A stretch of DNA of 64,000 nt, from assembly GCA_037447655.1 (NCBI GenBank), contig JBBHKE010000043.1, forward strand, positions 1 to 64,000, given 5' to 3'. The position numbers were made by a program, and so were the translations under genes. The DNA comes from Zygnema cylindricum. Taxonomy: Eukaryota; Streptophyta; Zygnematophyceae; Zygnematales; Zygnemataceae. Below the pieces are notes generated by a model. That model was not told where the DNA came from. It made no database searches and saw only the letters and a list, made by a program, of their open reading frames with translations. Below, one piece after another: positions 18,480-55,166 of this stretch. The stretch's first letter is position 1; each line of letters starts with the position of its first letter.

Positions 18480-18574
18480 TAAGAAAATAATTGATCGCCG
18501 TATCAAAGATGTCATAAATCTGATATTTTAAATAACAAAATGCAATTACGCAAGTTAGTATTGTCAGCTATGAT

Positions 18575-20115: not shown

Positions 20116-20210
20116 TAAGAAAATAATTGATCGCCGTATCAAAGATGTCATAAATCTGATATTTTAAATAACAAAATGCAATTACGCAAGTTAGTATTGT
20201 CACATGTTCA

Positions 20211-33263: not shown

Positions 33264-33453
33264 TGACGTGCATGAGAGAGAAGGAAGGAAATCATGCATC
33301 ATAACCAGCAAAGTCATGCTCTAGACATATATACAAACGAAAATGAATGAGAAGGGAAAAATATATATACACCATGCAAAAGAATGAAGGTGAAGATGAC
33401 TAAATGAATAAAAGGGAAGAATACTCCCCTAGCATGAAGTGACTCTTATAATT
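33264..33453 (-). repeat. Extra 184-bp repeat unit at outer left end
   Basis: 33,270-33,453 matches 34,601-34,784 with few differences (GCATGAGAGAGAAG... to ...GTGACyCyTATAATT). It has no counterpart at the right terminal repeat. Confidence 0.75.
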
Positions 33454-34592
33454 AATACTAAGCCGCAAAGTAGCCACTAGCCTCTTGGGTCTTCAACGTA
33501 TTATTTACAAGAGTTATCTCATAGAAAAGCAACGAAGCAAAATAAACACTTTCAACCAAACTAAGAAATTCGGATTCGGTAAAAAAAAGCACTTTTACAA
33601 GACAACCGCAATGCCACACAAACAAATACACTTAAACAAACCGTCTTGCTATCCGGAGAACGGCGTAGCCCAATAAAAGATGCCAAGCCTCAAGCATCCA
33701 CTCCAACAATCGCCAAAAAGACAAGTTTGGAGGGAAACCTTCCGGACTTGGCCGAAGCCGTGTGGATTAAAAACGAGGCAGAACATAAGGAGAGATAAGT
33801 CCGTATGCTAACTAGCATCTATCGCTAGCTAACAAGAAGAAAAGGAAATAGTGGGCAATCGATGGCAAGGAGGAAGCAAGAAAACAGCTACGCCGCCAAG
33901 AGAAAATTCTTGTCCAAAAGCTAGAAATTCTAAGTCTGAAAATAGACTAAGTAAGACTAAGCTAAGCCTAGCGCGAAACTAGCCTACGTCTAGTCTACTT
34001 TACATGAATGAAACTACTTAAGATGTTGGCCAATAGGCGGCCAACATCGTCTGCCGTACGTCTAACAAAATCCACAATCCAAGGGTAAAAACCCTCCCTA
34101 TCTACATGCATGCGTGAACCTACGTGGGTTCACGACTTTAAAGAATAAAAGTACATTGAAGCGCCACCAACGCTCCCGGAAATCGCGCTTCGTCGCGAAA
34201 CGATACTTGGCGTCTATACTCCAAAATCGCGTACGTACGCATGAAATGAAACATACCGCACGAAATATTCCAAGAAATCGCGACTCGTCGCCCAAACGAT
34301 ATTTGCGAAAGTACTATCGAGATTGTGTACCTACAAAATGAAACGAAACACACAGTACGCATGAAATTAGTATGTATTCAATTAGACGCTTACGCGAATC
34401 GCGTACACGTCACAAAATAGTGAACCGACATGACACCGCACGTGGAAACGAAACTTATATATGCGTGCCGAAATATCGCGCGTGCATGCATGATATCGTG
34501 CGCGCGCGTCGGAGAACTCCCGTGCGTGCACGATATCGTGCATGCGTGCAAAATATCGTGCACGAGTGCTACCGATACCATGCGACATGACA
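33454..34592 (-). repeat. Gypsy terminal repeat, 3' copy
   Basis: 1,139 bp, matching 54,028-55,166 at the same length and about 92% identity where I compared base by base. On the element strand it begins TGTCATGTCGCATGG. It contains clustered ATATCGTGC-type words (34,460-34,565) described separately. Confidence 0.8.
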
Positions 34593-34600
34593 ATTGTCTT

Positions 34601-34784
34601 GCATGAGAGAGAAGCAAGGAAATTATGCATCATAACCAGCAAAGTCATGCTCCAGACATATATACAAACGAAAATGAATGAGATAGGAAAAATATATATA
34701 CAAGATGCAAAAGAATAAAGGTGAAGATGACCAAATGAATAAAAGGGAAGAATACTCCCCTAACATGAAGTGACCCCTATAATT
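34601..34784 (-). repeat. Second copy of the 184-bp unit, next to purine tract
   Basis: A copy of 33,270-33,453. On the element strand it lies directly after a GAGGGGGGG tract (plus strand 34,785-34,793) that looks like a polypurine tract, so the true edge of the 3' LTR relative to this unit is unresolved. Confidence 0.7.
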
Positions 34785-34799
34785 CCCCCCCTCGGCTCC

Positions 34800-35027
34800 T
34801 TAGCCTGCGGAGGAGCTGGTCAAAACCGTCGGTAGCTCACGAGAGCCATGGCAAAACCAATGGCCGGCTGGCACAGCTGTCAATGGAGGAACTAAACACT
34901 CCATGTGGAACCCTTGGTTACAATGGTCGCACAAGAGCATGGAAGTCTCGCCGTGTGCTCGTTTGCAAATGGTACATTTCATCACCTCTGTGATTGGCAT
35001 CCTCATCGGATCTATATCTTGTGACAA
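34800..35027 (-). pseudogene. C-terminal PHD finger of gypsy integrase
   Basis: The translated segment reads CTICKRAHGETSMLLCDHC, then NQGFHMECLVPPL, then a WFC. This gives the Cys4-His-Cys pattern of a PHD finger (C-x2-C-x8-9-C-x2-C-x4-H-x2-C...W-x-C), with the LLCDxC...FHxxCL core. PHD fingers read histone tails. In this position, where chromoviruses carry a chromodomain, it could guide integration to particular chromatin. The frame ends at TAG/TAA-rich sequence just before the purine tract. The last zinc ligand pair is partly altered (WFCHGSRE), so folding is uncertain. Confidence 0.75.
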
Positions 35028-35066
35028 ATCCGATAAGTAACAAGGTGCACACTTCTTCGAATGCTC

Positions 35067-36437
35067 TCAAATTATCCTTGTATCCGCACCCTGCAAACCC
35101 AACATCCCATTAGCATCCATTTCCACCACACGAAGAATGTGTGGTGAAACATGCGTGTCCAAAGTGTCGAAAGATTGTTGTCGAAGGTACACGTAATCTC
35201 CGACTTGGTAAGATTTTTGTTGAGGCTTGTAACTACCACTTTGCGTGGTGGCAAAGCGCAAAGTATCCCGATGTTGGGAAATCTGCAAATTATCAAAAGC
35301 CATGGGCATCTCACGAGAAAAAAGCAAACCAGGGCGAGTTAGTTCTTCCAAAAATATGGTGTCAGACATTAGAGGCAAAGGTAAACTTGCTGATTTCTAA
35401 ATATTCCGACCGAGCAAGGGTGCTCGACCGAAGAGAATATAGTAGGGGCTGAAATTAGCCAAGCTAGCCTGTACGGACATCCGGTACCCCATGGTGATAT
35501 AGCCCAAGGATTTGTCCCAGACAGAGATGTGTTTCTCCAAACAATGCTTTTGGAGAGAGCGCTTGAAAGTTTGGACAGCTCGTTCCGCCAAGCCATCGGC
35601 TTGTGGGTGATCACGACTTGTCCGACGATGATCAATTAAATCTTCATCCAACATCTCTTGAAATTCACCGCGTAACTCCGTACCCTAGTCCGTGAGAACC
35701 TCCGCAGGAGCTCTATAACGCATAAGAACGTGCTCTTTAAAAGCAGCGGTGATCAATTTAGCACTCTTGTGGGGAAGAGCGACCACCTCTACCCACTTGC
35801 TAAAATTTTCAATCATTATCATGATGTATTGTTTCCCCTTTCGAGATAAAGGAAATGGTCCGGCAAGATCCACGGACCAGCGATAAAACAATCCTCTGAT
35901 AGGCAATGGCTGTAGAGACACCTGCCGATTAGAGAAAGAGGTACGTAGCCGGTCGCATGTGGCGCATTTATGGAGAATGGCTGCCACATCCGCTTGCATT
36001 TTGGACCACCAACAGCGTGCCTTTACAAGGCTCAAAGTACGCTTGGTCCCATAATGGCCAAGCTCGGTATGTATCTGCTCAATCAAAGACAAATGCTCGG
36101 TTGGCCAGGGAACATGCAGATGACTGCTGTCCGCCAGCAATCGAACTAAAGATCCGCCGAGCCATAGATAATTTTTGGCTCGTTTCTTTACTCTGTCTTC
36201 CTCCTCGACGGTAATACCGGGCTGAAAGGTTTGAGAGGAGAGGAAGAGGATTAATGGGTCGTCACGCCACGGATCTGTGGTCGGGCGAGGGTGAGGAATA
36301 GAAGAGAGACTGTAAGTGATATAGGAACCAACCGACATGGCCGGTACCTCGTCCTCGTCGAAATCTTGCCGGACACCGTTATCGGTGGTCCGGGATAGTG
36401 GATTCTGAGAAATCCCGTCGGCGTTTAAGCTTAACAA
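35067..36437 (-). pseudogene. Gypsy integrase
   Basis: An N-terminal HHCC zinc domain is seen (IHTELGHYGTKRTL..., CATCDRLR). It is followed by the catalytic core with VDLAGPFPLSRKGKQYIM (first Asp) and a VLTD segment near 35,690 (second Asp). After a frame break comes HPQADGLAERAVQTFKRSLQ (Glu). A GDYVYLRQQ...SPHILRVVEMDANG segment (35,067-35,378) corresponds to the GPY/F-type C-terminal region. Frame breaks fall near 35,650 and 35,400. The order places it between RNase H and the PHD finger, as in Ty3/gypsy elements. Confidence 0.85.
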
Positions 36438-36619
36438 ACCGGGCCAATAGATGATATCAACGTCCTACTCTTGTAAAATTAAAGCTCATCGGGCAAACTT
36501 CCCTGAAAGCTTATGGTTGGTCATCAACAAATGAAGGGGTTGATGGTCAGTTAGGACATGAATGGCTTGCCGTAAAGATAATGTCGAAAATGAACAATAC
36601 CCCATACCGCAGCAAGACA

Positions 36620-36865
36620 TTAACCCTCGTAACTACTGTAATTAGATTCAGCTGGGTTATTGCTCCGGCTGGCGTATGCCACTACGTATTCCTCTCCATT
36701 TAACTCTCTTTGCGTTAAAATAACCGCAATGCCTGGCTTCGCGAAATCGGTTTGTAGGCAAAAAGGAAACTTGTGGTTAGGAGGTCGAAGAATGGGAGCG
36801 CTAGAATGGGTGGTTTTCAGTTTTTGAAACGCTTCTACTTGGGCGCGTCCCCAAACAAAAGGCAC
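36620..36865 (-). pseudogene. Gypsy RNase H fragment
   Basis: The segment FCLQTDFAKPGIAVILTQRE...EEYVVAYASRSNNPAESNYSS is split in this entry only for description. It follows the RT connection region, with Asp of the LQTD motif and the ASR..N.AE.NYS block typical of Ty3/gypsy RNase H. The frame is closed by a stop near 36,617. Confidence 0.85.
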
Positions 36866-36871
36866 TTCTTT

Positions 36872-37601
36872 CTAGAGAAGGTCATTGAGGGGAGAAGCCA
36901 TCGTACTAAATTTCAATACAAAACGACAGTAATAATTGGCTAGTTCGAGAAAAGCCCTCAGACTAGTGAGATCTGTAGGGGCCGGCAGTTTAGTGATAGC
37001 CTCTACCTTAGCTTCCAAGGGAGTGATGCCCTCAGCTGAAATAAAATCGGCGAGAAAAGGCACTCCCTCTGCACCGAAAGTACACTTGGCTGGGCGACAC
37101 TTCAACCCGACTTTCTTTAACTCGGTGAGAACCCACTCAATATGGTGGGCGTGCTCCTCAACCGTGGCGGAATTGATTATCAAGTCATCGATGTAGCACC
37201 GAGCAAATTTACATCCACCCAGCACTGAATCCATGACTTTTTGAAGCACGGCGGGTACGTTCTTAAGACCGAAAGGCATGACTGCCCATTCCCACCGAAC
37301 ATCACTGCCCAAAAATGCAATTTTATGTCGATCTCTTTCCTCGATTTCAATCTGGTTAAACCTTTGACGCAAGTCAAGAATGCTAAAGAACTTTGCGATA
37401 CCTACATGGTCAAATATTTCCTCTGCTAGAGGCATAAGTTGGCGGTCTTGAACGGTCAGGGCATTGAGCTCTCTGTAGTCCCCACACATTCTTCGCTTAG
37501 TGAAATTTCCGTCAGAATATTTCTTCATAAGCATGACTGTGGGGGAGGCAAAGGTGGAATCTGACCGATAGATTAGACCGGCTTCTTCAAATTTTGCGCA
37601 T
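36872..37601 (-). pseudogene. Gypsy reverse transcriptase, 3' part
   Basis: Motifs in order: NFTKRRMCGDYRELNALTVQ (domain 1-2), FFSILDLRQRFNQIEIEE (catalytic region, here DLRQRF where DLRSGF is usual), VMPFGLKNVPAVLQKVM, CYIDDLIIN (the YxDD box) and the TSLRAFLELANYYCRF thumb region. Upstream at 37,601 it is cut by the copia element; the missing N-terminal part is at 44,069-44,348. Confidence 0.9.
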
Positions 37602-38659
37602 TGAAACTCTATAAGTCCTCAGAGTGGACAGATTCTAAGAAGCCTCTTGGATAACCCTGACCCCTTTGTGTTTCAACAAGAACAACTGCCACCCTGGCAG
37701 AAAATAACTCTGACCACCTTCACCCGTCTAAAGGCAAGACTCCCCTGAGTCGATAGCAAAAAGAATCTCTTAATTTTCTCCAATGAGCAGTAAGTTATAG
37801 AGGGTCAAAGTTGACCTTTTGTATAGAAGCTCTCTGGGAGAGAGGATCGTATCTCCTAATTTTTCTAAGTCCTATCTCTCTCACAGACCCTATCTACTGA
37901 TGTATGGAGCCAATCATATTCCACTTTCGTACACAAAAGTACAGTTGCCGGTGTACTTTTTGTATGGACATTGTACGACATGGCCTAAATATCGACACAT
38001 GTCATATCCGGATTTGGTGCCATAATCTCCGGAGATACCACGATCCAATGTAATTTCGCCACGTGTCATCCGATGTGGCGATGACCACAAACCGCCGAAA
38101 TTCTTTTCCGCGATCTCGGCGTTCATTTCGGCCGTCCGATTAAATTTACATTTAATCGTAGCTGTAATAAATACCTGCGCGGTATTCGTTTCGATAAAGA
38201 ATTAAATGCGCGGTATTCGTTTCTAATCCATACTGTAATCCGTACTTTTACATTAATGGATCTATGTCTCCCGCAAACAGTTTCAGTTAAATGAATAATC
38301 CTACGTGTTAGTGTTTAACTAAATATCAAACCCTATAATACGTAACACTAGGTCTACACTTAATGGATAAGGTTACCGGCTACTGGCAGCTTACCGTCCG
38401 GCAGGTACCAAAATCAAATCCTGGAGGCGTCACGTAATATTTTAGTAAATAAACCCCTAATGGTAAATAAACTGATATTTATATCCTGTAAACCTCTGGA
38501 TAGCCTAGGTAGCCATGGCTCTAGCTTCCTCTCCAATTTCTCAGTGACTGCGACAAGTTTGAGAGTTGGAGAGAGAAGTTAGAGGTAGATTGCCTCGGCT
38601 TCTTTCTATATTTCTATTTAGACCTAGAAAATACTTTAAAAGGACCATTAATTTCTACA
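37602..38659 (-). repeat. 3' LTR of copia element 2
   Basis: The plus strand begins TGAAACTCTATAAGTCC and ends GGACCATTAATTTCTACA. The 5' copy differs by a ~10-bp insertion near its inner edge. It contains a tRNA-like segment at 38,361-38,434. Confidence 0.9.
38361..38434 (+). other. tRNA-like segment inside copia LTR 2 (3' copy)
   Basis: TAATGGATAAGGTTACCGG resembles an A box and AAAATCAAATCCTGG a weak B box about 50 bp further on. Its homologue at 43,776-43,853 is better preserved. Confidence 0.45.
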
Positions 38660-38672
38660 CTCCCCTTATTTT

Positions 38673-39632
38673 CTAGTCAATCTTTAATTTCAGACCACAC
38701 TTCTCCCTACAGAAAATTAGCTTAGGGGAAGGCACAGGTTTAGTCATCATATCTGCTACCATCTCACTATCTGGTCGATACTCTAAAGTGATTATTTTGT
38801 TTTCTACTTTCTCTCTAACAAAACTGAGTCTAATGTCCATGTGTTTGAATTTAAAATGATGTTTAGGATTGGGAGAAATAGCGATTGCTGCCTGATTATC
38901 ACAAAAAAAATTCTGCACACCACTCTTAAGGTGACCAAGCTCACTAAGCAAAGACTTGACCCACATCAATTCTTTTACAGCAGAGCAAGAGGCTATATAC
39001 TCAGCCTCCATGGTGGACTGAGCAATAACTTTTTGTTGTTTGCTACTCCAACAGCAAGCCCCATCACCCACATATAATACATATCCAGAAGTGCATCTCC
39101 TCATCGGAGCATAACCATAACTGGCATCACTCCAAGTAGTGATGTCAGTATTCTCCCCACCCAAATGCAACCATAGATCCCTAGTTCCTATCAAGTATCT
39201 AAGGACTCTCTTAGCTGCCTCCCAATCCCTTTTAGTGGGAGCATTTAGACTTCTACTCAGCACTCCTACAGCTGCAGCTAAATCCGGCCGGGTACAATTC
39301 ATAAAATAGATTAGACTTCCCACTACTTGCTTGTAAAGAATAGTCTGCATGAACTTCTGTTCTTCAGGAGATAATTCCTCGTCCAAGACTATGACTCCTT
39401 CTTCCTCACTCCCCTCACTTCCCTTCTTCAACTCCATTGGAGTTGTAGAACTATTAGATTTATCCATTTGAAATTTTTCAAGCTTGTTCCCTATTGCTTC
39501 CTTTTGGGTCAATCTTATAATATTTGTTTTGCGGTCTCTCTCTACTTGAATTCCCAAAATATATTTTGCTTCCCCCATATCCTTCATTTCAAATCTCCCC
39601 TTAAGATCGGTTTTCAGTTTATTAATTTTTTA
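38673..39632 (-). pseudogene. Copia 2 RT C-terminus and RNase H
   Basis: A 304-codon block starting MKDMGEAKYILGIQVERD, the usual sequence after the copia RT YVDD motif. It runs through a PDLAAAVGVLSR region, then WSDASYGYAPMRRCTSGYV and STMEAEYIASCSAVKELMWV (RNase H catalytic region), and VRDKVENK/ADMMTKPVPSPKL-type ends. It is in the same frame as the upstream RT, separated by a single in-frame stop at about 39,630. Confidence 0.9.
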
Positions 39633-40331
39633 CATTGATTTACTTAAAACAAGCAAATCATCAACATAAATTGCAATAAATATAAAACCTTCCTCATCTT
39701 CGAAAACATAGATTGAGTGATCTGAGCTGATCCGGATATATCCCAGACCGGTAAGAAACTCATCAAGCTTCTTATTCCACTGTCGAGGCGCCTGTTTCAA
39801 ACCATAAAGAGATTTAATCAGCCGGCATACCTTACTCTCCTCTCCTTCCTCCACAAACCCTTCGGGCTGTCGCATGAAGATCTCCTCTTCCAATTCTCTA
39901 TGCAAAAAGGTTGTCTTGATGTCCCTCTGGTGCACTTCCATATCTTCCGCTGCTGCCAGGCTGAGAAGTATGCGGACGGAGGGAAATCTGACCACCGGGG
40001 CAAAGGTTTCCTCGTAGTCAATTCCCACCTTTAGTGTAAATCCCTTTGCCACTAATCTAGTTTTATAGCGCTCAATTGTGTTATTTGGGTTTTGTTTTAA
40101 TTTGAAAACCAACTTAGAACCGATTGGTTTTCGGTTAGGTGGACAATCCACCAGCACCCAAGTATCGGCTGCCATAATTGAGGCCATCTCCTCATTGATG
40201 GCTCTCTTCCACCGGTTTCTTTCTGGACAAGTCATCGACTCTCCATAAGTTTGAGGTTCATCTTGATGAGATAGTTTAGTTACCTTGTTATTAACCTTTT
40301 TTTCTTGCAGTCTTTTGCTACTTCTCCTTCA
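39630..40331 (-). pseudogene. Copia 2 reverse transcriptase
   Basis: The blocks ERYKTRLVAKGFTLKVGIDY, APVVRFPSVRILLSLAAAED, HQRDIKTTFLHRELEEEIFM, CRLIKSLYGLKQAPRQW and AIYVDDLLVLSKSM define a Ty1/copia RT. Aspartate in DIKTTF and the DD of YVDD are kept. One TAA ends the block. Confidence 0.9.
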
Positions 40332-41732
40332 CCCCTCAAAATCTGAGGCCGGAATAGATGGTTCTCGTGGATTCTCTCGAACAAACGCGGCTTCTCCCCT
40401 ATCCCTTGATTCCGAATCAATTTCTACCTCGTCTTTCGTTTCGGGAAGAGTTGTCACTGGAGTTTCCACAGCCGAGTCCTTTTTGGTCTGATTTGTACCT
40501 ACAAGAATGTCATCTTCTCTAAAACCTGGATAGTTAGGAAGCTCAAAGTCATCGGAATTTTCTGACTCAAATCTGAACTTTACTGACTTTGTATACTTGA
40601 AGGGATCCACAAACTTTCCTTCATCCATAACTACTAGATGCTTTACTAAGATTATATCTTTCCTTTTTAGATCGTAAACTCTATATCCTTTAACATCCTC
40701 ATCATATCCTAATAAGTATCCCGGTTTTCCTTTAGGATCTAGCTTCCAATTGGACCGATTAGTATCTAGACTGAAAACTTGACTGCCGAAAACCTTTATG
40801 TGAGATATGCATGGTTTCCGGCCTGTCCATCTCTCATAAGGTGTTTGATCTTTTATAGCTGAAGTAAGAACTCTATTTTTGAGGTAATTAGCACAGTTCA
40901 TTGCTTCTGCCTAAAACCTTTTTCCTATCTTTTTATCTGACAACATACTACTATCACTTAGTGTCTTATTTAACCTTTCAGCTACCCCATTCTGTTCCGG
41001 GTTTTCTGGGACTGTCTTTTGGTGTTGGACTCCATCTTCCCTCAAAAAATCCTCAAACTGGTTAGAAGTATACTTCCCACCATTGTCACTCCTTACTCTC
41101 TTGATTGGAGCTTCATGGAGTTTTTCACTCCATGCTTTATATTGTCTAAAGCAATCCTGAGCTTCTGACTTATTTTTCAAAAATTACACCCGGGAATACC
41201 GAGACCAATCATCAGTGATAGTCATTATAAATCTCTTCCCCCCCGGTGAGGGCACTTTAGCCGGTCCCCAAATATCTGTGTGTACTAGATCTAGAATTTT
41301 TTCTCCCTTATTGGTGGTTGTTTTAGGAAAGGGTAATCTGTGTGTTTTACCTTGAGCGCATCCACTACAATCACTTATGTTATCACTCTCACTGAACTTA
41401 ATCCCTTCCACCACTCCCGTTTTTTCCATCTCTCTTAACTTATCTAGATTCACATGCCCAAGCCTCTTATGCCACATCATAATATCATGAACAACAGCAT
41501 AAATAAGTTTCTTCATTTCATTACTTAAAACCAGCCTAAACATCCCATGGCTACCTTTCTCAGCAATGAAAAAGACATCCTCCTCAAAACTAGCAGTAAA
41601 GACTCCTTCGCTAGTGCTAGTAAAAAAACCCTTATCATCTAATACAGATGTAGAGATGAGGTTTTTGTTCAGCTCCAAAATAAATAATACATCGGAGAAT
41701 GTTATTATGGATGTCTTTCCTTCTACTAACAC
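40329..41732 (-). pseudogene. Copia 2 integrase
   Basis: The zinc domain reads HKRLGHVNLDKLREMEKTG...CSGCAQGK. The core reads VHTDIWGPAKVPSPGG (first Asp), RSDNGGKYTSNQFEDF (second Asp) and NPEQNGVAERLNKTL (Glu). A C-terminal region (40,329-40,901) leads into RT. Stops at about 41,184 and 40,908 interrupt an otherwise continuous frame. Confidence 0.9.
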
Positions 41733-41967
41733 TTTTAGATCTACCGATCCTACAAGAGTAGTGGTGACTATCCTCCCATCCCCGTACTCTACTCTACGGT
41801 GGGAATCTTTCTTATCTTAGTGAACAGGTGCCTATCCTTACACATGTGCATGGAGGCGACTGAATCTACAATCCAACCTGCTTCACCTTTCAATCCACCG
41901 TAAGCTCATTTCTGCCTTCGTGGAATTTCGACCTCATTTTTCGCCTCCAACTCCTCAAACTCCTCAT

Positions 41968-43008
41968 CTAAAAGGAGCGCATCGTCCTCGCCCTCGGATT
42001 CGCCTCATGTACCTGTGTCACAAGGGCCTTTTTCTTTCCTCTCTGGGTACCACCGGTCTGCCCCTCCTTTAACCGAAGCTTGGTTAGTTTAGTGCACTCT
42101 GCCATATAGTGCCCAGGTTTCTTACAAAAATGACATAAACCTTTGGGAGCCCTTGGTCCGAACTCGTCGGTCTGGTTTTTCTGCTCCCTCACCCCATAGT
42201 TTCCGACCGGTTTCCGGGAATCCTTGTTTCTCCCATTAGTCGCGGTTGCCAAGGCTTGTCCACTCTTTCCTCCCCTTTGGATCTCAATCGTATTCCCCCG
42301 AACGAGAATCATCCCTACCACTGAGTTCCATATCCATCTTGAGTCCGGCAAGTCCAGCACACGGTTGACTATGTTCTCGAACTCATCGGGTAACTTCATC
42401 AGTAAACAGTTAACCTTTTCTTTTTCAGTAAAATTTTTTCCCGCACTCTCTAGCTCCATGAAGAGTGTAGTAAGCTTATTGTAAAAATCCAACATTTTCC
42501 CCCCTTTGTATACATACTCCTTAACTTTCTGATCAGCCAACTGTTGTTGCTGAATCGTACCAATTCGGTACATCTCTATGAGAGCGATCCAAAGGTCGGA
42601 TGCCTTTTCTACCTGCAAATGAGGACATGCAAGTCCTTGAGTGAGATGGCGTAGGATGAAGTGTTTTGTCGCCATATTGTTGAAGTCCCAGGTTTCAGTA
42701 TCATTCTCCTCGTTCCTCGGAATAGGTGACATGAATGCGGAACCAGTTGCTATTGGTGTGGTCGTCTCCTTCTCCTTTCCTTTGTCCACCACCTCTCCTT
42801 CCTTTGTTTCCTCTGTTGAAGGTGGATCCTCTTTCCTGGTGAATCTGCTTCCTCCAAACCCTGGACGGATTCGAAGACTTGATAGACGCCCAAACCTTCC
42901 ACTCACTATCCCCCAAAACCTTTTTTCGCATAGAGCTCCAATCATCATACTTTCCCAGTATATGAAGCCAGTTCCATTAAAGATTGGTACCTTAGAGGGT
43001 GGGCCCAT
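41968..43008 (-). CDS. Copia 2 gag-like protein
   Basis: A 346-codon open frame starting MGPPSKVPIFNGTGFIYWE, the classical start of plant-type copia Gag, with the LTR edge only 4 bases upstream of the ATG. Residues about 130-240 form the UBN2-like Gag region (WIALIEMYRIGTIQQQQLAD, LLMKLPDEFENIVNRVLDLP). A CCHC zinc knuckle CHFCKKPGHYMAEC binds RNA near residue 300. It is the longest intact frame of the element. It ends at 41,968 in a frame different from pol, so a frameshift separates it from the protease region. The start codon overlaps the proposed primer-binding site. Confidence 0.8.
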   Translation of the reverse strand: MGPPSKVPIFNGTGFIYWESMMIGALCEKRFWGIVSGRFGRLSSLRIRPGFGGSRFTRKEDPPSTEETKEGEVVDKGKEKETTTPIATGSAFMSPIPRNEENDTETWDFNNMATKHFILRHLTQGLACPHLQVEKASDLWIALIEMYRIGTIQQQQLADQKVKEYVYKGGKMLDFYNKLTTLFMELESAGKNFTEKEKVNCLLMKLPDEFENIVNRVLDLPDSRWIWNSVVGMILVRGNTIEIQRGGKSGQALATATNGRNKDSRKPVGNYGVREQKNQTDEFGPRAPKGLCHFCKKPGHYMAECTKLTKLRLKEGQTGGTQRGKKKALVTQVHEANPRARTMRSF

Positions 43009-43012
43009 AACT
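42996..43012 (-). other. Primer-binding site candidate (half-tRNA-iMet type)
   Basis: Immediately inside the 5' LTR the minus strand reads AGTTATGGGCCCACCC. GTTATGGGCCCA is complementary to the anticodon arm of eukaryotic initiator tRNA-Met, as used by Drosophila copia and similar elements. The ATG within it starts gag. Equivalent positions in elements 1 and 3 read GTTATGTGCCCA and GTGATGCGCCCA. Confidence 0.65.
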
Positions 43013-44068: not shown

Positions 44069-44348
44069 CGCATTTTTTGTCCACCATCTCCCATTCCATT
44101 TCAGAGAGACGGTGTTTTAGCTTAAAGATAGGTCGATCATCTTCAAGGTCGATTGACATTTTGTTAGTAGAATGACGTCCAAGGTCATTCATGGAGAAAG
44201 CAAACGCATCTATATGACGGGTCACTGTGTCACTTGATAGTCCTGTTCCGCCTTTGTGAGACTGGAATCGAACTTCCACTGGGGTGTCTCGGGACTCTTG
44301 AATGGAAAGCTTCCATGGCCTGAGCAAATGCAATTTGCTCATCGGCAA
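44069..44348 (-). pseudogene. Gypsy reverse transcriptase, N-terminal part
   Basis: MSIDLEDDRPIFKLKHRLSE followed by MEWEMVDKKC is the region that precedes RT domain 1 in Ty3/gypsy elements. It is separated from the rest of RT only by the copia insertion, with CGCAT on both sides. Confidence 0.9.
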
Positions 44349-44396
44349 TGAGTGAGTGGCCTAACTCGTATTTTACCGGAGTGTGCTGCAAGCAGT

Positions 44397-45700: not shown

Positions 45701-46109
45701 ACACGAAAGATCGGTTGCAACTGTAGGTATAGGAGGGATAGTCGTTAATGGAATAGATAACGTGGACTTATAAATACTGTCAAATGTGTGAGAATTGATA
45801 AGAAAACCCGGTTCCGCAAAGAGCTCGGGTAAGGGAGAACTATCCGTTGTAATTTCTTCGGCCGAAAGAAAGTGGAAAATTTCCTCCCCAACGGAGTTCC
45901 CCAAAAATGCGGGAAGAGCTGTAGCCGAGTGAGCCAAAGTTGGCAAAGGTCGGCGGGCTGAAATGAGAGGGAGGCAGATTTTGCGCTCCGGAAAGTGTGT
46001 CGGTCGGTAAGAGAATGTCCAGTCGTGCATGTCCACACCACCAACGACTCGGAATATAACGTCTTGACCCACCAAACACTCATAGTCGTCACATTTAGTG
46101 ACCAATGCT

Positions 46110-46420
46110 CTAACGGCAATTTCAACGGACTCATTTTCGGTTCCTGTCTGAAACCGAAAGATGAGCGGGTCTTTTGTGATTCCGATGACCGGCTTCGTGG
46201 TCCCAACCGAAGTAAGAAGGCGGGTAGAGGTCGCCGAAGCTTGTCTACTGTCAGACCAAGCTTGAGCGCGAATCCGGATCCGAGGATCATGGGTTTGGCC
46301 CCGGTGTCCATGAGGGGAAGAGTGGGGTGAACACCGTTTACTGAGAATGATCCCCGAGAGTTATCAAGGAAACTAAAATGGGGATCGAGATTACGACGTT
46401 CTTCCATCGTAACTGGTGAG
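46110..46420 (-). pseudogene. Gypsy aspartic protease, copy 1
   Basis: FSVNGVHPTLPLMDTGAKPM holds the DTGA active-site motif (about 46,295-46,310), with the hydrophobic AKPMILGSGFALKLGL continuation. The C-terminal part, VRALVTKCDDYECLVGQDVIF, is in another frame, so a frameshift lies near 46,215. It processes the polyprotein in active elements. Confidence 0.8.
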
Positions 46421-47151
46421 AGAATGCGGTTCAACTGCAAAGCCCTCAAAGCGGGTGCCGTTGCGACCTCATCAACAAGGGGAAGGGCTTTTGGTACATC
46501 CTCCAACATTGTTGAAAGAATACTTAATCGCTCCTTCACCCGAAGAGCCTCATGAATGGTGTTATCTAATATGGTCTGTGCCTCTGAGGCAATGGTAGGA
46601 GAGGTTTCCGGTAGGGAAGCCAAATGCTCTTTTGCAAATGAGAGTGGGACACGAGAATTTTGTAATTTGCCCACTCGGTTATGGTCTGCTGAGCCCCTTT
46701 CAAATGTGGCCACCCGTTGTTGGACGGTGGAATCCCGAAGGGTTCGCCCGGTCAACGACGGCATGTGGACAACGGTCCTGTCCATCCCAGTAAACTGGGG
46801 TTTCATTTCCGCCATGAAAGCTGCAAATTGCTCTTTCATCATGGCGGCCATTGTGGCTTGAAGCTCGGCCTTCTCTCTCTCTCTATGAGAGATCTTAGGA
46901 GGAGCTTCCTCCTTCTTGGTCTCCTTAGGCGGAGTGACTGGTTTCGCGGAACGGGCCGGAATTCCGCCGTTCTTTATCTGATTTTGGTAAGTGAAATTAG
47001 GGTCCTTAATGTGGCACCGATGAACATAATGTCCTTTTTGGTGGCAATGAGAGCAAGTGGCTGCCTTGTCAGGACACATGCGGGCATCGTGCCCGATTTT
47101 TCCACATTGGAAACACATTTGGTTTCCAAGAATAGCGGGTGGAGTTCCCAT
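46421..47151 (-). pseudogene. Gypsy nucleocapsid with two zinc knuckles, copy 1
   Basis: CFQCGKIGHDARMC and CSHCHQKGHYVHRC are two CCHC knuckles (C-x2-C-x4-H-x4-C) for RNA binding. A basic, then helical linker (SHREREKAELQATMAAMMKE) and a proline-poor spacer lead to the protease. The frame is open for about 245 codons. A stop at 47,164-47,166 lies four codons upstream of its first Met, in the same frame as gag. Confidence 0.8.
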
Positions 47152-47163
47152 GGCTGGCGTCTT

Positions 47164-48319
47164 CTAGGGCCTATAAGGAGGCCATGGGTTTTTAGGTGAA
47201 GGAGGAGATAGATTGGCCGGTTCTTTATGAGGAGGTCTGAACTGCTCATGGGCGTCCCAACACAGTGTCTGCATCTCATACTCTACCGCGTATTGAGCTG
47301 CTTGCTCAAAGGTGAATTTCAGTCCATACATCTGGCTGAGGTGGTTTTGGATAAACCTCTTTGATGGTCCTAGAAACTGTCCCACAAATTTTTGGACAGC
47401 CTCCGCATCGGACATGAGGTTCAGTAATGCCTCTCGCAGAGTTTCCATCCGAGCGCGCAAGGCAAGAGCAATTTCACCTGGCCTACGCTCGAAGTTCATC
47501 AACTCTTTGATCTGATCCGGATTTTGCATCCGGTACTCCTCTTGAATGATGTCAAACATGACTGAGAGAGGGTCAGGTAAAGGAATGGTGCCCCCCGCTC
47601 TAGCTGGGACCGCCGCTCGCGCAGCCACTGCATAATGACGAGGAACCTCGAGAATAGTTGGATACAACTCGTCCCCATTGGCATCTAATACTGACGGTAT
47701 CGCGGCTTGATATGGGATATCCACCTAACCGAGGACTTTTGATTACCCCGAAAAGGGAGCCACGTACTCTGTCATCGCAAAAACATACGCATACTTGCGA
47801 GTGTAGAGAGTGAGGGTCGTACCACGGAGGTATTGACCCAAAAGGGAAAAGGCGACACGGAGGTCAAACCTATCCTGATATCTAAATGCTAGATCCCTCA
47901 TTTCTGTGTCGTATAATATCCAAAAATGCGATAAGGACATGGTGTCCTTCAATCCGGAAAAGCAGAATTGCATCCTACCCATGGATCCCCTCTGAAGAGG
48001 AAGCCATGTCTAAAAGAGGAGGATGAGCCGGTTGTGACAATGCTGGGCTGGCACGAAACCTACGAGTGTGAGGAGCTGGAAAGGTTTCCTCCGGAAAGTC
48101 TTCTTCGGTCCCCTCTAGGTATGACCTAGATGAAACCGAGGACAATGATGACGTAAATGTGAGACCAGACGACACAGACGACGATTTGCGATCTAGAATT
48201 AGATCGGATGTGGTCAACGATTCGGGAAAATCTGAAAGATTTAACTGCGAAAGACGATACAATGTACCACCTCGGGTGGACCCGGACAAATAAGGGAGGT
48301 TGTCATAATCTGTGGGCAT
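47164..48319 (-). pseudogene. Gypsy Gag, copy 1
   Basis: Three pieces: 48,319-47,975 (114 codons, Ser-rich), 47,982-47,743, and 47,727-47,164. The last has the Retrotrans_gag-like helices RPGEIALALRARMETLREAL and FVGQFLGPSKRFIQNHLSQM. The last two share a frame but are separated by stops at 47,743 and 47,725; the first is in another frame. Confidence 0.75.
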
Positions 48320-48985
48320 TAACCAAGGGGAAAACCCTGACTACAATACTGAACTGTTTCGCACGACCTAACCGAGATGCAACACGTGTCAGACCAATCC
48401 ACTCGTCCAGTCAACACACTCAGTCACTATCAAGACCTGATGGTCATATCCAGCAAGAAGTCGGTTTACCAAAACCTCTACCCTGCAAGCATTTGGCAAG
48501 GCCAAAGAATCAGATCTACAAAAACAAGAAAATTGCTATCCAAGCACCCTTGGGTGCAGATTTACAACAACACAGCTAGGAAAAAGTCTACACAGTGCCA
48601 CCCACGGCAAGATCTAGCAAGAAATCCCACTCCAAATAGTCACACGATAATCGAAGGCCACTTAGGGCCACATAGCATGCAGGGAAAGCAGGAAAATGCA
48701 AATGCTCAATAAAAAAGGTTCACGATGGAACCAATCAACACCGCCCCCCTAGACGCGTGTCCACACTAAATTGGAACGCTTCGCACCCGCCAAGGCATCG
48801 ACTACTTACAGACACCTTTAGTACTCTGGTGGGCACTAAGGGTGAACCGAACTTTTTCGAAGCAATTCGGGTTTTGCAAAGCTCCCTGGAATAAAATTCG
48901 CTCCACGAAATTCGCTCCGAGCAACGTCTCCCAAATAACCCTCCGTACCGTAAAGATGTACGCTGTGGAATGTTAGGTAACCAAT
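48320..48985 (-). other. Gypsy leader/LTR-like region, copy 1
   Basis: Homologous to 52,815-53,484. On the element strand an AGGGGGGCGGTGTTG tract is followed by TGGTTCCATCGTGAACC. Either a polypurine tract with an LTR start, or a primer-binding site, could explain it; the latter is also a perfect 5-bp inverted repeat (GGTTC/GAACC). No gene. Confidence 0.45.
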
Positions 48986-49562
48986 GGAGCTGAGCCATTA
49001 TCAGACATGTTAGCGGAAGCAAACCCAAAGAGAAATGCCTAAAAGACTAGATCTATAGTGTAAGATATGTAACTCCAAACGAAAGAGGTATTTTTACCAA
49101 ACAAACATGTACTACAAGCAAATTAGAGACAATATAAAACACCTTAAACTACACTCAGTGCTCTCATTTCTTTAATTCTTGTGTAGAATGTACATTCTGT
49201 ATTGAATTGATCAATCCTAATTGAACTAAATACTCAAGAGATCTAGAAAACATCTAAAATATCTAGAAAACATCTAAAACGTATGTACATGGTTCACCAG
49301 ACACCCTAATGACAAAAATCTAAGTGTTTGAACCAGATTTGTCCACTAACAATATCTATACCCTAAAAATCCGGGTGATTCTTATCACGTCTACATTCAT
49401 TGGCGGCCGTACACACTTATTAACTTAAGGATATCAATTTGTGTAGATACTACAAAAAATCCACACTAAATTTGGTCAATATTGAACAGTTGGTATTCCA
49501 AAAATATTCTCAGTTCTAGACTCAAATTTCTAAGGCTTACTAAAGCTTACTTTTCAATACAA
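48986..49562. other. Spacer between the two gypsy copies
   Basis: AT-rich, with a short direct repeat (ATCTAGAAAACATCTAAAA twice near 49,240-49,280). It has no counterpart right of 53,484. No gene is recognised. Confidence 0.5.
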
Positions 49563-50195
49563 ATTAGCCTCATGAAGACGACCAACATCGATTAGGTTCG
49601 TCCATTTTGAGCGAACCCGGTGTGCCAAGGACCCATGCCGAGGGGCATCAATAATTAGCGGGGGTCTGATAAGGTGTTGTATGCGCTTATAGTCAGCCAG
49701 AACTATTGGGCGAGGATCATTATAAGCGGCAACGTTCTCTAAAATGTATCCGACAGGCTTGGCCATGGTTTGAAGAAAATGAAAGACCCTCAAAAGCTCA
49801 AAAAACAATTTGGTACGGGGATCCGCCAAACCAAGACCTTTGCCGGCCCGAGACATGCCTTGACACTCCCACCCCCCGAAAACAAGGTCTATCGGTTTGA
49901 CATCCCGTAGATGATGATTACTAAGGATGCGGATGTCTTAGGGAAGAGCAGTGTGCATTTGTAGAAAGGCTGACTTTGGAGACAACTGTGGATACTGTGA
50001 ATGCAGGAGATTAAAGTGGTGCAATTGTGTTATCCTAGCTAATGCATCAATTTCTACTGCATAGTAGTGACGGAGGAGGAGACCATTCCGTAAACATGAC
50101 AGTAGTGAAGTTCTGATCCCAGCGAATAGATCTAAAATAACGACCCCGTCCGTTTGAGGACTCAGCTGTACGGGCTTCCAACTAGTGGGAAGGAA
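49563..50195 (-). pseudogene. Cytosine-5 DNA methyltransferase domain, copy 2, truncated
   Basis: The same motifs as copy 1: DLFAGI (50,115-50,132), ECQGMSRAGKGLGL (about 49,830-49,868), and here the intact motif VI GYILENVAAYNDP (ENV at 49,731-49,739), then IDAPRHGSLAHRVRSKWTNL near 49,600. It retains glutamines where copy 1 has two later stops, but shares the stop at 49,935-49,937. The domain is cut at 49,563, so the C-terminal motifs IX-X are missing, as are RT and everything after. It is the better reference for the ancestral DNMT sequence in this region. Confidence 0.85.
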
Positions 50196-50239
50196 ACACG
50201 AAAGATCGGTTGCAACTGTAGGTATAGGAGGGATAGTCG

Positions 50240-52814
50240 TTAATGGAATAGATAACGTGGACTTATAAATACTGTCAAATGTGTGAGAATTGATAAGAAA
50301 ACCCGGTTCCGCAAAGAGCTCGGGTAAGGGAGAACTATCCGTTGTAATTTCTTCGGCCGAAAGAAAGTGGAAAATTTCCTCCCCAACGGAGTTCCCCAAA
50401 AATGCGGGAAGAGCTGTAGCCGAGTGAGCCAAAGTTGGCAAAGGTCGGCGGGCTGAAATGAGAGGGAGGCAGATTTTGCGCTCCGGAAAGTGTGTCGGTC
50501 GGTAAGAGAATGTCTAGTCGTGCATGTCCACACCACCACCGACTCGGAATATAACGTCTTGACCCACCAAACACTCATAGTCGTCACATTTAGTGACCAA
50601 TGCTCTAACGGCAATTTCAACGGACTCATTTTCGGTTCCTGTCTGAAACCGAAAGATGAGCGGGTCTTTTGTGATTCCGATGACCGGCTTCGTGGTCCCA
50701 ACCGAAGTAAGAAGGCGGGTAGAGGTCGCCGAAGCTTGTCTACTGTCAGACCAAGCTTGAGCGCGAATCCGGATCCGAGGATCATGGGTTTGGCCCCGGT
50801 GTCCATGAGGGGAAGAGTGGGGTGAACACCGTTTACTGAGAATGATCCCCGAGAGTTATCAAGGAAACTAAAATGGGGATCGAGATTACGACGTTCTTCC
50901 ATCGTAACTGGTGAGAGAATGCGGTTCAACTGCAAAGCCCTCAAAGCGGGTGCCGTTGCGACCTCATCAACAAGGGGAAGGGCTTTTGGTACATCCTCCA
51001 ACATTGTTGAAAGAATACTTAATCGCTCCTTCACCCGAAGAGCCTCATGAATGGTGTTATCTAATATGGTCTGTGCCTCTGAGGCAATGGTAGGAGAGGT
51101 TTCCGGTAGGGAAGCCAAATGCTCTTTTGCAAATGAGAGTGGGACACGAGAATTTTGTAATTTGCCCACTCGGTTATGGTCTGCTGAGCCCCTTTCAAAT
51201 GTGGCCACCCGTTGTTGGACGGTGGAATCCCGAAGGGTTCGCCCGGTCAACGACGGCATGTGGACAACGGTCCTGTCCATCCCAGTAAACTGGGGTTTCA
51301 TTTCCGCCATGAAAGCTGCAAATTGCTCTTTCATCATGGCGGCCATTGTGGCTTGAAGCTCGGCCTTCTCTCTCTCTCTATGAGAGATCTTAGGAGGAGC
51401 TTCCTCCTTCTTGGTCTCCTTAGGCGGAGTGACTGGTTTCGCGGAACGGGCCGGAATTCCGCCGTTCTTTATCTGATTTTGGTAAGTGAAATTAGGGTCC
51501 TTAATGTGGCACCGATGAACATAATGTCCTTTTTGGTGGCAATGAGAGCAAGTGGCTGCCTTGTCAGGACACATGCGGGCATCGTGCCCGATTTTTCCAC
51601 ATTGGAAACACATTTGGTTTCCAAGAATAGCGGGTGGAGTTCCCATGGCTGGCGTCTTCTAGGGCCTATAAGGAGGCCATGGGTTTTTAGGTGAAGGAGG
51701 AGATAGATTGGCCGGTTCTTTATGAGGAGGTCTGAACTGCTCATGGGCGTCCCAACACAGTGTCTGCATCTCATACTCTACCGCGTATTGAGCTGCTTGC
51801 TCAAAGGTGAATTTCAGTCCATACATCTGGCTGAGGTGGTTTTGGATAAACCTCTTTGATGGTCCTAGAAACTGTCCCACAAATTTTTGGACAGCCTCCG
51901 CATCGGACATGAGGTTCAGTAATGCCTCTCGCAGAGTTTCCATCCGAGCGCGCAAGGCAAGAGCAATTTCACCTGGCCTACGCTCGAAGTTCATCAACTC
52001 TTTGATCTGATCCGGATTTTGCATCCGGTACTCCTCTTGAATGATGTCAAACATGACTGAGAGAGGGTCAGGTAAAGGAATGGTGCCCCCCGCTCTAGCT
52101 GGGACCGCCGCTCGCGCAGCCACTGCATAATGACGAGGAACCTCGAGAATAGTTGGATACAACTCGTCCCCATTGGCATCTAATACTGACGGTATCGCGG
52201 CTTGATATGGGATATCCACCTAACCGAGGACTTTTGATTACCCCGAAAAGGGAGCCACGTACTCTGTCATCGCAAAAACATACGCATACTTGCGAGTGTA
52301 GAGAGTGAGGGTCGTACCACGGAGGTATTGACCCAAAAGGGAAAAGGCGACACGGAGGTCAAACCTATCCTGATATCTAAATGCTAGATCCCTCATTTCT
52401 GTGTCGTATAATATCCAAAAATGCGATAAGGACATGGTGTCCTTCAATCCGGAAAAGCAGAATTGCATCCTACCCATGGATCCCCTCTGAAGAGGAAGCC
52501 ATGTCTAAAAGAGGAGGATGAGCCGGTTGTGACAATGCTGGGCTGGCACGAAACCTACGAGTGTGAGGAGCTGGAAAGGTTTCCTCCGGAAAGTCTTCTT
52601 CGGTCCCCTCTAGGTATGACCTAGATGAAACCGAGGACAATGATGACGTAAATGTGAGACCAGACGACACAGACGACGATTTGCGATCTAGAATTAGATC
52701 GGATGTGGTCAACGATTCGGGAAAATCTGAAAGATTTAACTGCGAAAGACGATACAATGTACCACCTCGGGTGGACCCGGACAAATAAGGGAGGTTGTCA
52801 TAATCTGTGGGCAT
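50240..52814 (-). pseudogene. Gypsy gag-zinc knuckle-protease block, copy 2
   Basis: Offset by exactly 4,495 bp from copy 1 and almost identical to it. It carries the same Gag pieces (52,814-51,659), the same two CCHC knuckles, the same DTGA protease, the same stops and the same protease frameshift. Only about two base differences were seen over roughly 2.9 kb of compared coding sequence. Confidence 0.85.
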
Positions 52815-53484
52815 TAACCAAGGGGAAAACCCTGACTACAATACTGAACTGTTTCGCACGACCTAACCGAGATGCAACACGTGTCAGACCAATCCACTCG
52901 TCCAGTCAACACACTCAGTCACTATCAAGACCTGATGGTCATATCCAGCAAGAAGTCGGTTTACCAAAACCTCTACCCTGCAAGCATTTGGCAAGGCCAA
53001 AGAATCAGATCTACAAAAACAAGAAAATTGCTATCCAAGCACCCTTGGGTGCAGATTTACAACAACACAGCTGGGAAAAAGTCTACACAGTGCCACCCAC
53101 GGCAAGATCTAGCAAGAAATCCCACTCCAAATAGTCACACGAAAATCCAAGGCCACTTAGGGCCAGATAGCATGCAGGGAAAGCAGGAAAATGCAAATGC
53201 TCAATAAAAAAGGTTCACGATGGAACCAATCCACACCGCCCCCCTACACGCGTGTCCACACTAAATCGGAACGCTTCGCACCCGCAAGGCATCGACTACT
53301 TACAAACACCTTTAGTACTCTGGTGAGCAATAAGGGTGAACCGAACTTGTTCGAAGCAAGTCGGGTTTTGCAAAGCTCCCTGGGATAAAATTCGCTCCAC
53401 GAAATTCGCTCCGAGCAACGTCTCCCAAATAACCCTCTGTACCGTGAAGATGTACGCCGTGGAATGTTAGGGAACCAATGGAAG
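52815..53484 (-). other. Gypsy leader/LTR-like region, copy 2
   Basis: The counterpart of 48,320-48,985, with about 4-5% differences including a 1-bp indel. Similarity ends at AACCAATGGA. Confidence 0.5.
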
Positions 53485-54027
53485 GGGAAAAAATAACGTT
53501 GGGTGGAAAAAAAATAACCAATAAGAAACACAAATGCGATAGATAGAAAAAGGGTGTTAGAATAAAGTCGGAGGCGGCTCAAACTCCAGATATACAGCCA
53601 AACTGGTGACCACAATAATCCAAAGCCAGCAGTCAACCCTAATTACAGTTGAAAAATCCTAATTCCAAATCCAAACCCTAATTTTAGATGGCCAAAACTC
53701 AAAATCTGCAGCAAAGGAATAGAAGGATACCGACCAAAGGACTAGAACAAAAAGGAATAAACCCTAAATCTGCTGCAACCCTAATTTTGCAGCCCAAAAC
53801 TCTAATTATGCCACCAAACCCTAATTTTGAAGATTAACCCTTAATTTGATACAAAATTTATGTTTAACCCTAAAGCCAAGAAATATAGTGGTAACAAAAT
53901 AAGAGACAAAGATTGAAAGAAAGAAACAGCAGAAACAAAAACAAAATGTTTTTTTTTTTTTTTTTGTAAAATAAAATTTATATTTTTAATAGATTTTTTT
54001 ATTTTATTTTAGAGACTTTTGGACAAG
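53485..54027. other. Leader with repeated telo-box-like words
   Basis: No gene. ACCCTAATT/ACCCTAAA words occur at about 53,636, 53,670, 53,758, 53,777, 53,816 and 53,868. A T tract lies at 53,949-53,966. It lies between the 5' terminal repeat and gag copy 2. Confidence 0.5.
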
Positions 54028-55166
54028 AATACTAAGCCGCAAAGTAGCCACAAGGCTCTTGGGTCTTCAACGTATTCTTTACAAGAGTCATCTCATAGGA
54101 AAGCAACGAAGCAGAGTAAACACTTTCAGCCAAACGAAGAAATTCGGATTCGGTAAAAAAAAGCACTTTTACAAGACAACCGAAATGCCACACAAAAAAA
54201 TACACTTAAACAAACGGCCCAGCTGTCCGGAGAACGGCGCTGCCGAATAAAAGATGCCACGCCTCAAGCATCCACTCCAATAACTGCCAAAAAGACAAAT
54301 TTGGAGGGAAACCTTCCGGACTTGGCCGAAGCCGTGTGGACTAAAAACGAGGCAGAACACAAGGAGAGAAAAATTTCTACACTATCTAGCATCTATCGCT
54401 AGCTAACAAGAAGAAAAGGAAATGGTGGGCAATCGGTGGCAAGAAGGAAGCAAGAAAACAGCTCCGCCGCCAAGAGAAAATTCTTGTCCAAAAGCTAGAA
54501 ATTCTAAGTCTGAAAATAGACTAAGTAAGACTAAGCTAAGCCTAGCGCGAAACTAGCCTACGTCTAGTCTACTTTACATGAATGAAACTACTTAAGATGT
54601 TGGCCAATAGGCGGCCAACATCGTCTGTCATACGTCTAAAAAAATCCACAATCTAAACGTAAAAACCCTCCCTATCTACATGCTTACGTGAACCTACGTG
54701 GGTTCACGACTTTAAAGAATAAAAGTACATTGAAGCCCCACCAACGCTCCTGGAAATCGCGCTTCGTCGCGAAACGATACTTGGCGTCTATACTCAAAAA
54801 TCGGGTACGTACGCACGAAACGAAACATATCGCACGAAATACTCTAGGAAATCGCGACGCGTCGCCCAAATGATATTTGCGAAAGTACCATCAAGATCGT
54901 GTACCTACAAAATGAAACAAAACAAACAGTACGCACGAAATTAGTATGTATTCAATTAGACGCGTACGCGAATCGCGTACACGTCACAAAAAAGTGAACC
55001 GACATGACACCGCACGTGCGAACGAAACTTATATATGCGTGCCGAAATATTGCGCGTGCATGCATAATATCGTGCGCGCACGCCGGATAACTCCCCTGCG
55101 TGCACGATATCGTGCATGCGTGCGAAATATCGTGCACTTGTGTTACCGATACCATGCGGCATAACA
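54028..55166 (-). repeat. Gypsy terminal repeat, 5' copy
   Basis: 1,139 bp, paired with 33,454-34,592. On the element strand it begins TGTTATGCCGCATGG. It lacks the extra 184-bp unit seen at the left. Confidence 0.8.

Follow-up and report, generated by a model that had tools for sequence, protein, structure and literature searches.

A Gypsy element that carries a DNMT3-type DNA methyltransferase and has DIRS-like repeats is already known from a charophyte. In the available text of de Mendoza et al. 2018 (PMC5890265), KnitGypsy-Dnmt3 of Klebsormidium nitens is described with the methylase inside the Gypsy Pol frame, with DIRS-like repeats in the order A-coding-B-A-B and with purifying selection on the methylase; SymbioDIRS-Dnmt3 of Symbiodinium, described in the same text, likewise has Dnmt3 in Pol and split repeats, and occurs in two domain orders. 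Here we analysed a 64,000-nucleotide stretch of Zygnema cylindricum DNA (contig JBBHKE010000043.1, positions 1 to 64,000; the window), in which a Ty3/Gypsy-type element with a captured cytosine-5 methylase (DNMT) occupies positions 33264-55166 of the minus strand, together with the relatives of this element in the genome. Unlike SymbioDIRS-Dnmt3, which uses a tyrosine recombinase (PMC5890265, same text), the Zygnema element encodes a DDE integrase. We consider it probable that its family took up a DNMT3-like methylase in pol and a PHD finger behind the integrase long ago, and that its self-primed cDNA is ligated and then reopened at a palindrome inside the repeat.

Further systems share single features with this family. 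PAT and Ngaro elements have split direct repeats A1-B1-A2-B2 (accessible part of PMC4157794); PAT, DIRS and Ngaro differ from the family described here, in which we found 4-bp target-site duplications, a polypurine tract and a self-primer, and no tyrosine recombinase match in the scanned pieces. Self-priming is shared with Tf1/sushi and the plant Tcn1 chromoviruses (consulted part of PMC6317226), but here a PHD finger stands where chromoviruses have a chromodomain, and split repeats and a DNMT are present in addition. In prototype foamy virus, as proposed here, the integrase cuts a palindrome whose two-base centre is lost on integration; however, the foamy virus palindrome is the joint of the cDNA ends, whereas the Zygnema palindrome lies inside the repeat, away from the ends (consulted part of PMC1180852). 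In the main text on KnitGypsy-Dnmt3, ‘phd’ and ‘target site’ do not occur, and the single use of ‘primer’ is in the cloning methods (PMC5890265); the available description, on which our comparison is based, mentions neither self-priming nor a palindrome. Likewise, neither ‘phd’ nor ‘methyltransferase’ occurs in the main text of a 2019 survey of long terminal repeat (LTR) elements in plants (PMC6317226). Among the literature matches listed, no title or abstract dealt with a PHD-bearing Gypsy integrase or with integration through an internal palindrome, supplements and most subscription journals being outside this search. Thus, we did not find described the PHD finger behind the integrase, the glutamate that replaces proline before the catalytic cysteine of the methylase, or the logic of the repeats. 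Another case of capture is the RNA-demethylase domain acquired by orchid Ty3/Gypsy elements (PMC9289625, available part).

The window element starts with TG, ends with CA and is bordered directly by TAGG on its 3' side (33260-33263) and its 5' side (55167-55170), which forms the target-site duplication; the ends proposed in an earlier note on this DNA thus proved exact. Its order is A1-coding-B1-A2-B2, with a nested copia element and an internal duplication in the coding part. The A repeats (A1, 54028-55166; A2, 33454-34592) are 93% identical to each other, as are the B repeats (B1, 34595-34784; B2, 33264-33453), all on the minus strand. The element lacks a pair of complete LTRs bounding the integrated DNA, as its 5' end carries A only. 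Instead, the integrated DNA begins at the start of A and finishes at the end of B, and these two borders meet inside the element, at the B1|A2 junction GACA-GC-TGTC; in the window this palindrome reads GACA-AT-TGTC (34589-34598) and in relatives GACAGCTGTC.

The genome (353 Mb, 2689 contigs) was searched with the PF00145 profile. At least 123 places were scored (from 782 candidates), all above the curated cut-off. Twenty of the 123 loci, selected for variety, high scores and length of open frame, were opened, 9.9 kb each (198 kb); counts from this selected set do not give rates for the genome as a whole. Thirteen fell into the family of the window element (F1), five into a sister family F2 and two into a sister family F3, the methylases of F2 and F3 being 40-42% identical to that of F1. 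Locus L009 holds a single open frame of 2395 amino acids encoding gag, protease, DNMT, reverse transcriptase (RT), RNase H, integrase and PHD finger, so that copies with an intact frame, for which the earlier note had suggested a genome-wide search, do exist. Probes from L009 detected RT in 18 and the PHD region in 15 of the 20 loci, and the two loci without RT have the zinc knuckles of the element upstream. Intact relatives without the methylase were not seen among these loci, all of which had been found by that very domain.

Eight of the ten copies seen at both ends (window, L009, L011, L014, L020, L022, L025 and L028) have the layout A-coding-B-A-B. Exact 4-bp duplications lie outside A1 and B2 in six of these eight (window TAGG, L009 TTGG, L014 AAGG, L025 GTGG, L020 CCCC, L022 CCCT), and in L011 and L028 three of four bases match; since the duplications differ, the copies are not segmental duplicates of one insertion. 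All six exact duplications have the form NNGG (four) or CCNN (two), a possible insertion-site preference that was spotted afterwards. In L009, no difference was found between the A copies over the parts compared (100% identity), and the B copies are 99.6% identical, which points to a recent insertion. The A and B probes were taken from F1 and matched 11 of the 13 F1 loci (not L015 and L027) and none of the seven F2/F3 loci. L019 carries A pieces in both orientations and no B, and in L010 no A1 was found. Sixteen further downstream pieces were also inspected: four contained B|A, one the palindrome only (L056), one an A|B joint (L049), one B followed by other sequence (L045), one a degraded B without A (L052) and one a B cut by the end of the piece (L046), and in seven nothing was recognised. 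The upstream pieces L059 and L060 contained neither A nor B.

The palindrome GACAGCTGTC was exact in eight of the 13 opened F1 loci, one of the five F2 loci and one of the two F3 loci (L017 and L024 for the sister families), with an expectation of 0.19 occurrences in the 198 kb at equal base frequencies. It was also present in L048 and L056, and altered forms occur in the window, L043, L050 and L051. In F1 copies, one F2 copy and one F3 copy, about 190-240 bp separate it from the polypurine tract ahead of it; this tract is rich in purines, contains a run of G and, in the window, directly precedes B1 (34785-34801, minus strand, two C inside). While the B1|A2 junction is constant, the A2|B2 joints were all different within subfamilies, in five of five copies of S1 (GTATTAATTATA, GTATTATA, GTAAATTATA, GTATAATTATA and GTATCGAATTATA) and three of three copies of S3 (GTATTAAACC, GTAAATAAACC and GTATGATAAACC). 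A few bases of variation in the A|B joint within a subfamily look like the result of cDNA end joining, as in two-LTR circles.

Directly behind A1, and overlapping its last bases, lies a 15-nt segment (54016-54030) that is complementary to a segment inside A1 (54480-54494; both minus strand). Such complementarity was found in all ten copies holding that part of A and was exact over 15-21 nt in eight of them: 15 nt in the window, L011 and L025, 18 in L009, 20 in L019 and 21 in L014, L022 and L023. Matches with mismatches were seen in L021 (21/24) and L028 (19/21). In a control of 500 random pieces per locus, which was unusable for L019 because of inverted repeats, the longest matches were 10-13 nt; the longest exact run in L028 (9) falls within this control range. 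L020 was left out of the count, as the relevant part of A is outside its piece. From one subfamily to another both partner sequences change, and they do so in step, as is characteristic of self-primers such as those of Tf1/sushi and Tcn1. As judged from these pairings, the predicted primer binding site is complementary to the element's own repeat, that is, of the Tf1/sushi type.

When the methylase was compared with solved structures, the closest were DNMT3A (E 1.3e-8 with the window piece and 1.1e-10 with a relative), followed by DNMT3C/3B, with HaeIII and HhaI far behind. Structures of DNMT1, CMT and DRM are present in the PDB; no PDB chain with one of these names matched at E 1 (window piece) or 0.1 (relative). 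The block AHRVRSKWTNL aligns with AHRARYFWGNL of DNMT3A. By its ranked PDB matches the methylase groups with DNMT3 among the C5 methylases, and the DNMT3 rather than DNMT1 or CMT affinity suggested in the earlier note was upheld on this basis. The ADD and PWWP domains typical of DNMT3 gave no Pfam match in the scanned pieces, which cover only part of the residues.

Motif I, the cysteine of motif IV, ENV of motif VI, and motifs VIII and X of C5 methylases are all present. The catalytic cysteine is kept in all 20 opened loci and the window, and motif I and ENV are mostly kept. Motif IV reads W-E-C-Q in F1 and W-P-C-Q in F2/F3. Glutamate precedes the cysteine in 14 of 14 F1 copies, the window copy among them, and proline in seven of seven F2/F3 copies; in L015, S takes the place of W. 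Proline at this position is usually regarded as near-universal elsewhere, and the repeated change between proline and glutamate calls this constancy into question. Among 27 relatives found in the protein database, the residue before the cysteine is glutamate in 15, aspartate in two and proline in ten, the cysteine itself being kept in all 27. On a tree of these relatives this residue changes six times, with at least four changes forced by well-supported branches, although several long branches call for care. P0018 (Closterium sp. NIES-54) has WECQ together with EHV for ENV in motif VI. P0021 and P0024-P0027 form a distinct group of relatives, in which motif IV is of the SSPCQGLSRANR type (P0025 has SLPCQ) and motif VI has EM or KM instead of EN; P0021 and P0026 carry the source annotation site-specific DNA-cytosine methylase.

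Between F1 subfamilies, synonymous divergence (dS) of the DNMT is saturated and non-synonymous divergence (dN) is 0.11-0.23, which indicates purifying selection; amino-acid change was greater than in most RT or integrase pairs. Within subfamily S2, DNMT dN/dS was 0.08-0.18 (pairs with dS >0.1). The observed/expected ratio of CpG was 0.83-1.01 in F1 loci and 0.57-0.69 in F2/F3. At codon boundaries it was 0.78-1.06 in F1 versus 0.59-0.78 in F2/F3; these ranges touch, and age and codon use differ between the groups, so CpG depletion was dropped as an indicator of activity. In the window, the A repeats show an excess of CpG and a shortage of CAG/CTG (5-13 seen versus 31 expected); the shortage was weaker or absent in several other copies and was rejected as a consistent signal.

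Altogether, these features suggest the following route. The element RNA would prime its own reverse transcription, as in Tf1. With the self-primer site directly behind A1, minus-strand synthesis is expected to start at the end of A, and with the polypurine tract before B1, plus-strand synthesis is expected to start at B; the linear cDNA would then be BA-coding-BA. Its ends, the end of A and the start of B, would be ligated, in the simplest case giving a circle with two repeats. The DDE integrase would ignore the cDNA ends and cut GACA|GC|TGTC inside the upstream BA repeat, the two middle bases of the palindrome would be dropped, and the product inserted would be A-coding-B-A-B. In vitro, the integrase of foamy virus cleaves the palindrome at the LTR-LTR junction and leaves a 5' overhang of 2 nt (consulted part of PMC1180852). 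The methylase might set marks on the circular cDNA or at the site of insertion, and the integrase might be steered by the PHD finger to nucleosomes with a given state of the histone H3 tail, two steps that we put forward with more reserve. At somewhat short of an even chance, we suggest the general statement that a retrotransposon with a DDE integrase has moved its attachment site from the cDNA ends into the middle of the repeat, that the end-joined circle is an obligate integration intermediate, and that the element may write and read epigenetic marks around that step. Whether two-LTR circles are true precursors of integration is an old question of retrovirology (PMC1180852, consulted part). 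If the route is true, the structure seen in the genome cannot form without the joining of cDNA ends and an internal cut, so the circle question would become testable by sequencing, and a Gypsy element that resembles DIRS without a tyrosine recombinase would be explained. The presence of methylase and PHD finger in one selected polyprotein makes it testable why retroelements capture an enzyme that hosts use against them.

Several observations weigh against this proposal. The two equal B|A palindromes of a circle should yield the mirror product A-B-A-coding-B as often, yet it was found in none of the ten copies with both ends nor in the further pieces, which implies a biased choice of site or a different intermediate; a bias might arise because the upstream site is closer to the joined ends (about 190-240 bp, against about 930-1390 bp for the other site). 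L021 and L023 are A-coding-B without A2-B2 and without a target duplication, and L045 stops exactly at B and has no A2; none of the three is accounted for by the proposed route. Later point mutations could lie behind part of the differences between joints, as most copies are not young, and both the circle and the 5' end of the RNA are predictions from sequence. With respect to the methylase, dN/dS was 0.32-0.60 within S1, S3 and S4, which are mostly decaying copies, CpG is barely depleted in the WECQ family, the glutamate in place of proline in motif IV may mean that catalysis is altered or lost, and DNMT activity as well as the PHD target are predicted from homology. L021, L023 and L045 all run from the end of B into unrelated sequence, and the next bases in L045 resemble a copia RT by eye.

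Part of these difficulties would be met if the integrase received, in place of a closed circle, linear cDNA dimers formed by end joining or cDNA to which template switching had added B2. Variable A|B joints are equally expected in this case, and the sole permutation seen could be explained; but two molecules, or a B2 template beyond the self-primer strand transfer, would be required, and the opened loci, in which no systematic screen for dimers was made, showed no obvious dimeric insertion. We regard this variant as rather unlikely. Insertion of a DIRS/PAT-like element from a circle by a tyrosine recombinase would account for the same repeat layout, and KnitGypsy-Dnmt3 was called DIRS-like (PMC5890265, available text). 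It is nevertheless very improbable, because the integrase is a DDE rve/H2C2 enzyme, because the scanned pieces gave no tyrosine recombinase match (a genome-wide search for one was not made) and because 4-bp target duplications, exact in six of eight copies, are present, while a tyrosine recombinase is said to act without forming target-site duplications (PMC4157794, accessible part). The window is full of nested elements and contains a tandem duplication, so that B and the split layout might be thought accidents of nested or tandem insertion into an ordinary LTR retrotransposon. For the family this was refuted by the recurrence of A-coding-B-A-B in eight of ten copies from three subfamilies with differing target duplications, exact in six of eight, and the similar spacing of the palindrome from the polypurine tract in F1 copies and in one copy each of F2 and F3 argues in the same direction; we give it even less credence than a tyrosine recombinase. 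As only the broken window copy was known at the outset, a chimeric assembly or a host DNMT gene broken by a retroelement also had to be considered. With at least 123 PF00145 places, with 18 of the 20 opened loci containing the element's RT and the other two its zinc knuckles upstream, and with relatives from other sources whose methylase shares one protein with a protease, RT or integrase, this explanation was refuted and can be practically dismissed.

A different doubt concerns the function of the methylase, which may methylate DNA no longer and may be kept as a nucleic-acid-binding or structural part or for another substrate. The invariant glutamate of F1, the glutamate or aspartate in 17 of the 27 database relatives and the lack of clear CpG depletion in F1 would fit such a loss. 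So would the retroelement DNMT of K. nitens, for which no activity was seen in yeast, a result its authors call inconclusive (PMC5890265, available text). On the other hand, retention of the catalytic cysteine in every database relative, opened locus and the window, the mostly retained motif I and ENV, and the six changes of the preceding residue on the tree, at least four of them forced, speak for a methylase that still works on DNA, and we consider the loss unlikely, though a serious alternative. The idea of the earlier note that the element could once methylate its own DNA may hold: the retained cysteine and ENV and the purifying selection between subfamilies are in its favour, whereas the glutamate of F1 and the negative yeast result are not.

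The coding part of the window element follows the Ty3/Gypsy order protease-RT-RNase H-integrase, and the assignment is based on this order and on the RVT_1, H2C2 and rve Pfam matches. In full, the Pfam order was zinc knuckle, protease, DNA_methylase, RVT_1, RNase H, Integrase_H2C2, rve and PHD, with the zinc knuckle and protease matches below their curated cut-offs. Gag with CCHC knuckles and the protease motif DTGA was translated from 50240-51658 in unit 2 of the internal duplication, and the protease core is placed at about 50729-50839 by analogy with a weak, sub-cut-off PF13650 match (9.6e-4) in unit 1. The N-terminal half of the unit 2 DNMT with motifs I, IV, VI and VIII lies at 49557-50138 and includes the significant PF00145 match (49557-49937, minus strand, 7.1e-9, 36 bits, cut-off 22), the check by which the earlier note had proposed to judge its methylase. 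The DNMT of unit 1, at 44700-45643, has broken frames and carries the C-terminal motif X, the same motifs being present in relatives. The RT region starts at 44069-44360, ahead of the nested copia, and continues at 36875-37596 (RVT_1, 6.3e-22), followed by RNase H at 36623-36871 (PF17919, 6e-20) and the integrase at 35400-36464 (PF17921, 1.1e-13; PF00665, 3.4e-6). The rve match is below the curated cut-off in the window copy and above it in L009. Behind the integrase lies the PHD finger (about 34848-34976; PF00628, 5.6e-12), whose relatives of known structure include the PHD fingers of PHF12, KDM5A, KAT6A and plant ATXR5; no chromodomain match was obtained in the scanned C-terminal pieces, where the PHD finger takes its place. 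All these features are on the minus strand. The translation thus bore out the report that DNMT motifs stand in order between a DTGA protease and RT, and the domain order supports the earlier call of a Ty3/Gypsy-type element with a captured methylase; the tandem duplication, the PHD finger and the split repeats had gone unmentioned there.

The segments 45066-48988 (unit 1) and 49561-53482 (unit 2), each a gag-protease-DNMT unit, are 98.9% identical and form a 3.9-kb internal tandem duplication, so the ‘copy 1’ and ‘copy 2’ of the earlier note belong to one element and not to two. ENV is intact in copy 2 only, as stated there, and copy 1 reads EII. The units diverge by 1.0% and A1/A2 by 7.0%, which makes the duplication younger than the insertion of the element. 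A Ty1/copia element foreign to it (37602-44068, minus strand; RVT_2 3e-60, copia gag 2.1e-12, LTRs 90%) is nested in the RT with a 5-bp duplication ATGCG and makes the distance from DNMT to RT 6.5 kb greater than in the element itself. In both units the protease start and the DNMT are in different frames, and stops break the DNMT; this copy is therefore dead and cannot work. By its sequence, the window element is a decayed member of a multi-copy Ty3/Gypsy-type family.

A protein search with the decayed window DNMT (P0001) returned none of 7607 candidates at E 1e-3, and with the better-preserved L009 27 of 7036 candidates were retained at E 0.01. An alignment-based search found at least 14 relatives among 8000 candidates scored, of which P0003 and P0008 were already known; in viral contigs, eight pattern matches included no relative. 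The source names of the relatives include jgi/Mesvir1, which we take to be Mesostigma viride, and Closterium sp. NIES-54, and no K. nitens element was recognised by name among the database matches. Eight relatives were scanned for further domains: P0002 and P0004 have protease-DNMT, like the protease-DNMT-RT order of the window, P0011, P0016, P0019 and P0020 have RNase H and P0015 has RT ahead of the DNMT, and P0009, P0016 and P0020 have an integrase behind it.

The LTRs of the nested copia element diverge by 9.2%, more than the A repeats of its older host element (7.0%), so a simple LTR clock fails here. Two more copia elements in the window (27758-33050 and 58464-64000) are 75-83% alike piecewise and about 70-73% like the nested one, with a CpG observed/expected ratio of 0.39-0.48. 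The window also contains an 820-bp direct repeat (17747-18566 and 19385-20202, 98.3% identical, starts about 1.6 kb apart) and, at 16564-16973, a tandem array with 55-bp steps.

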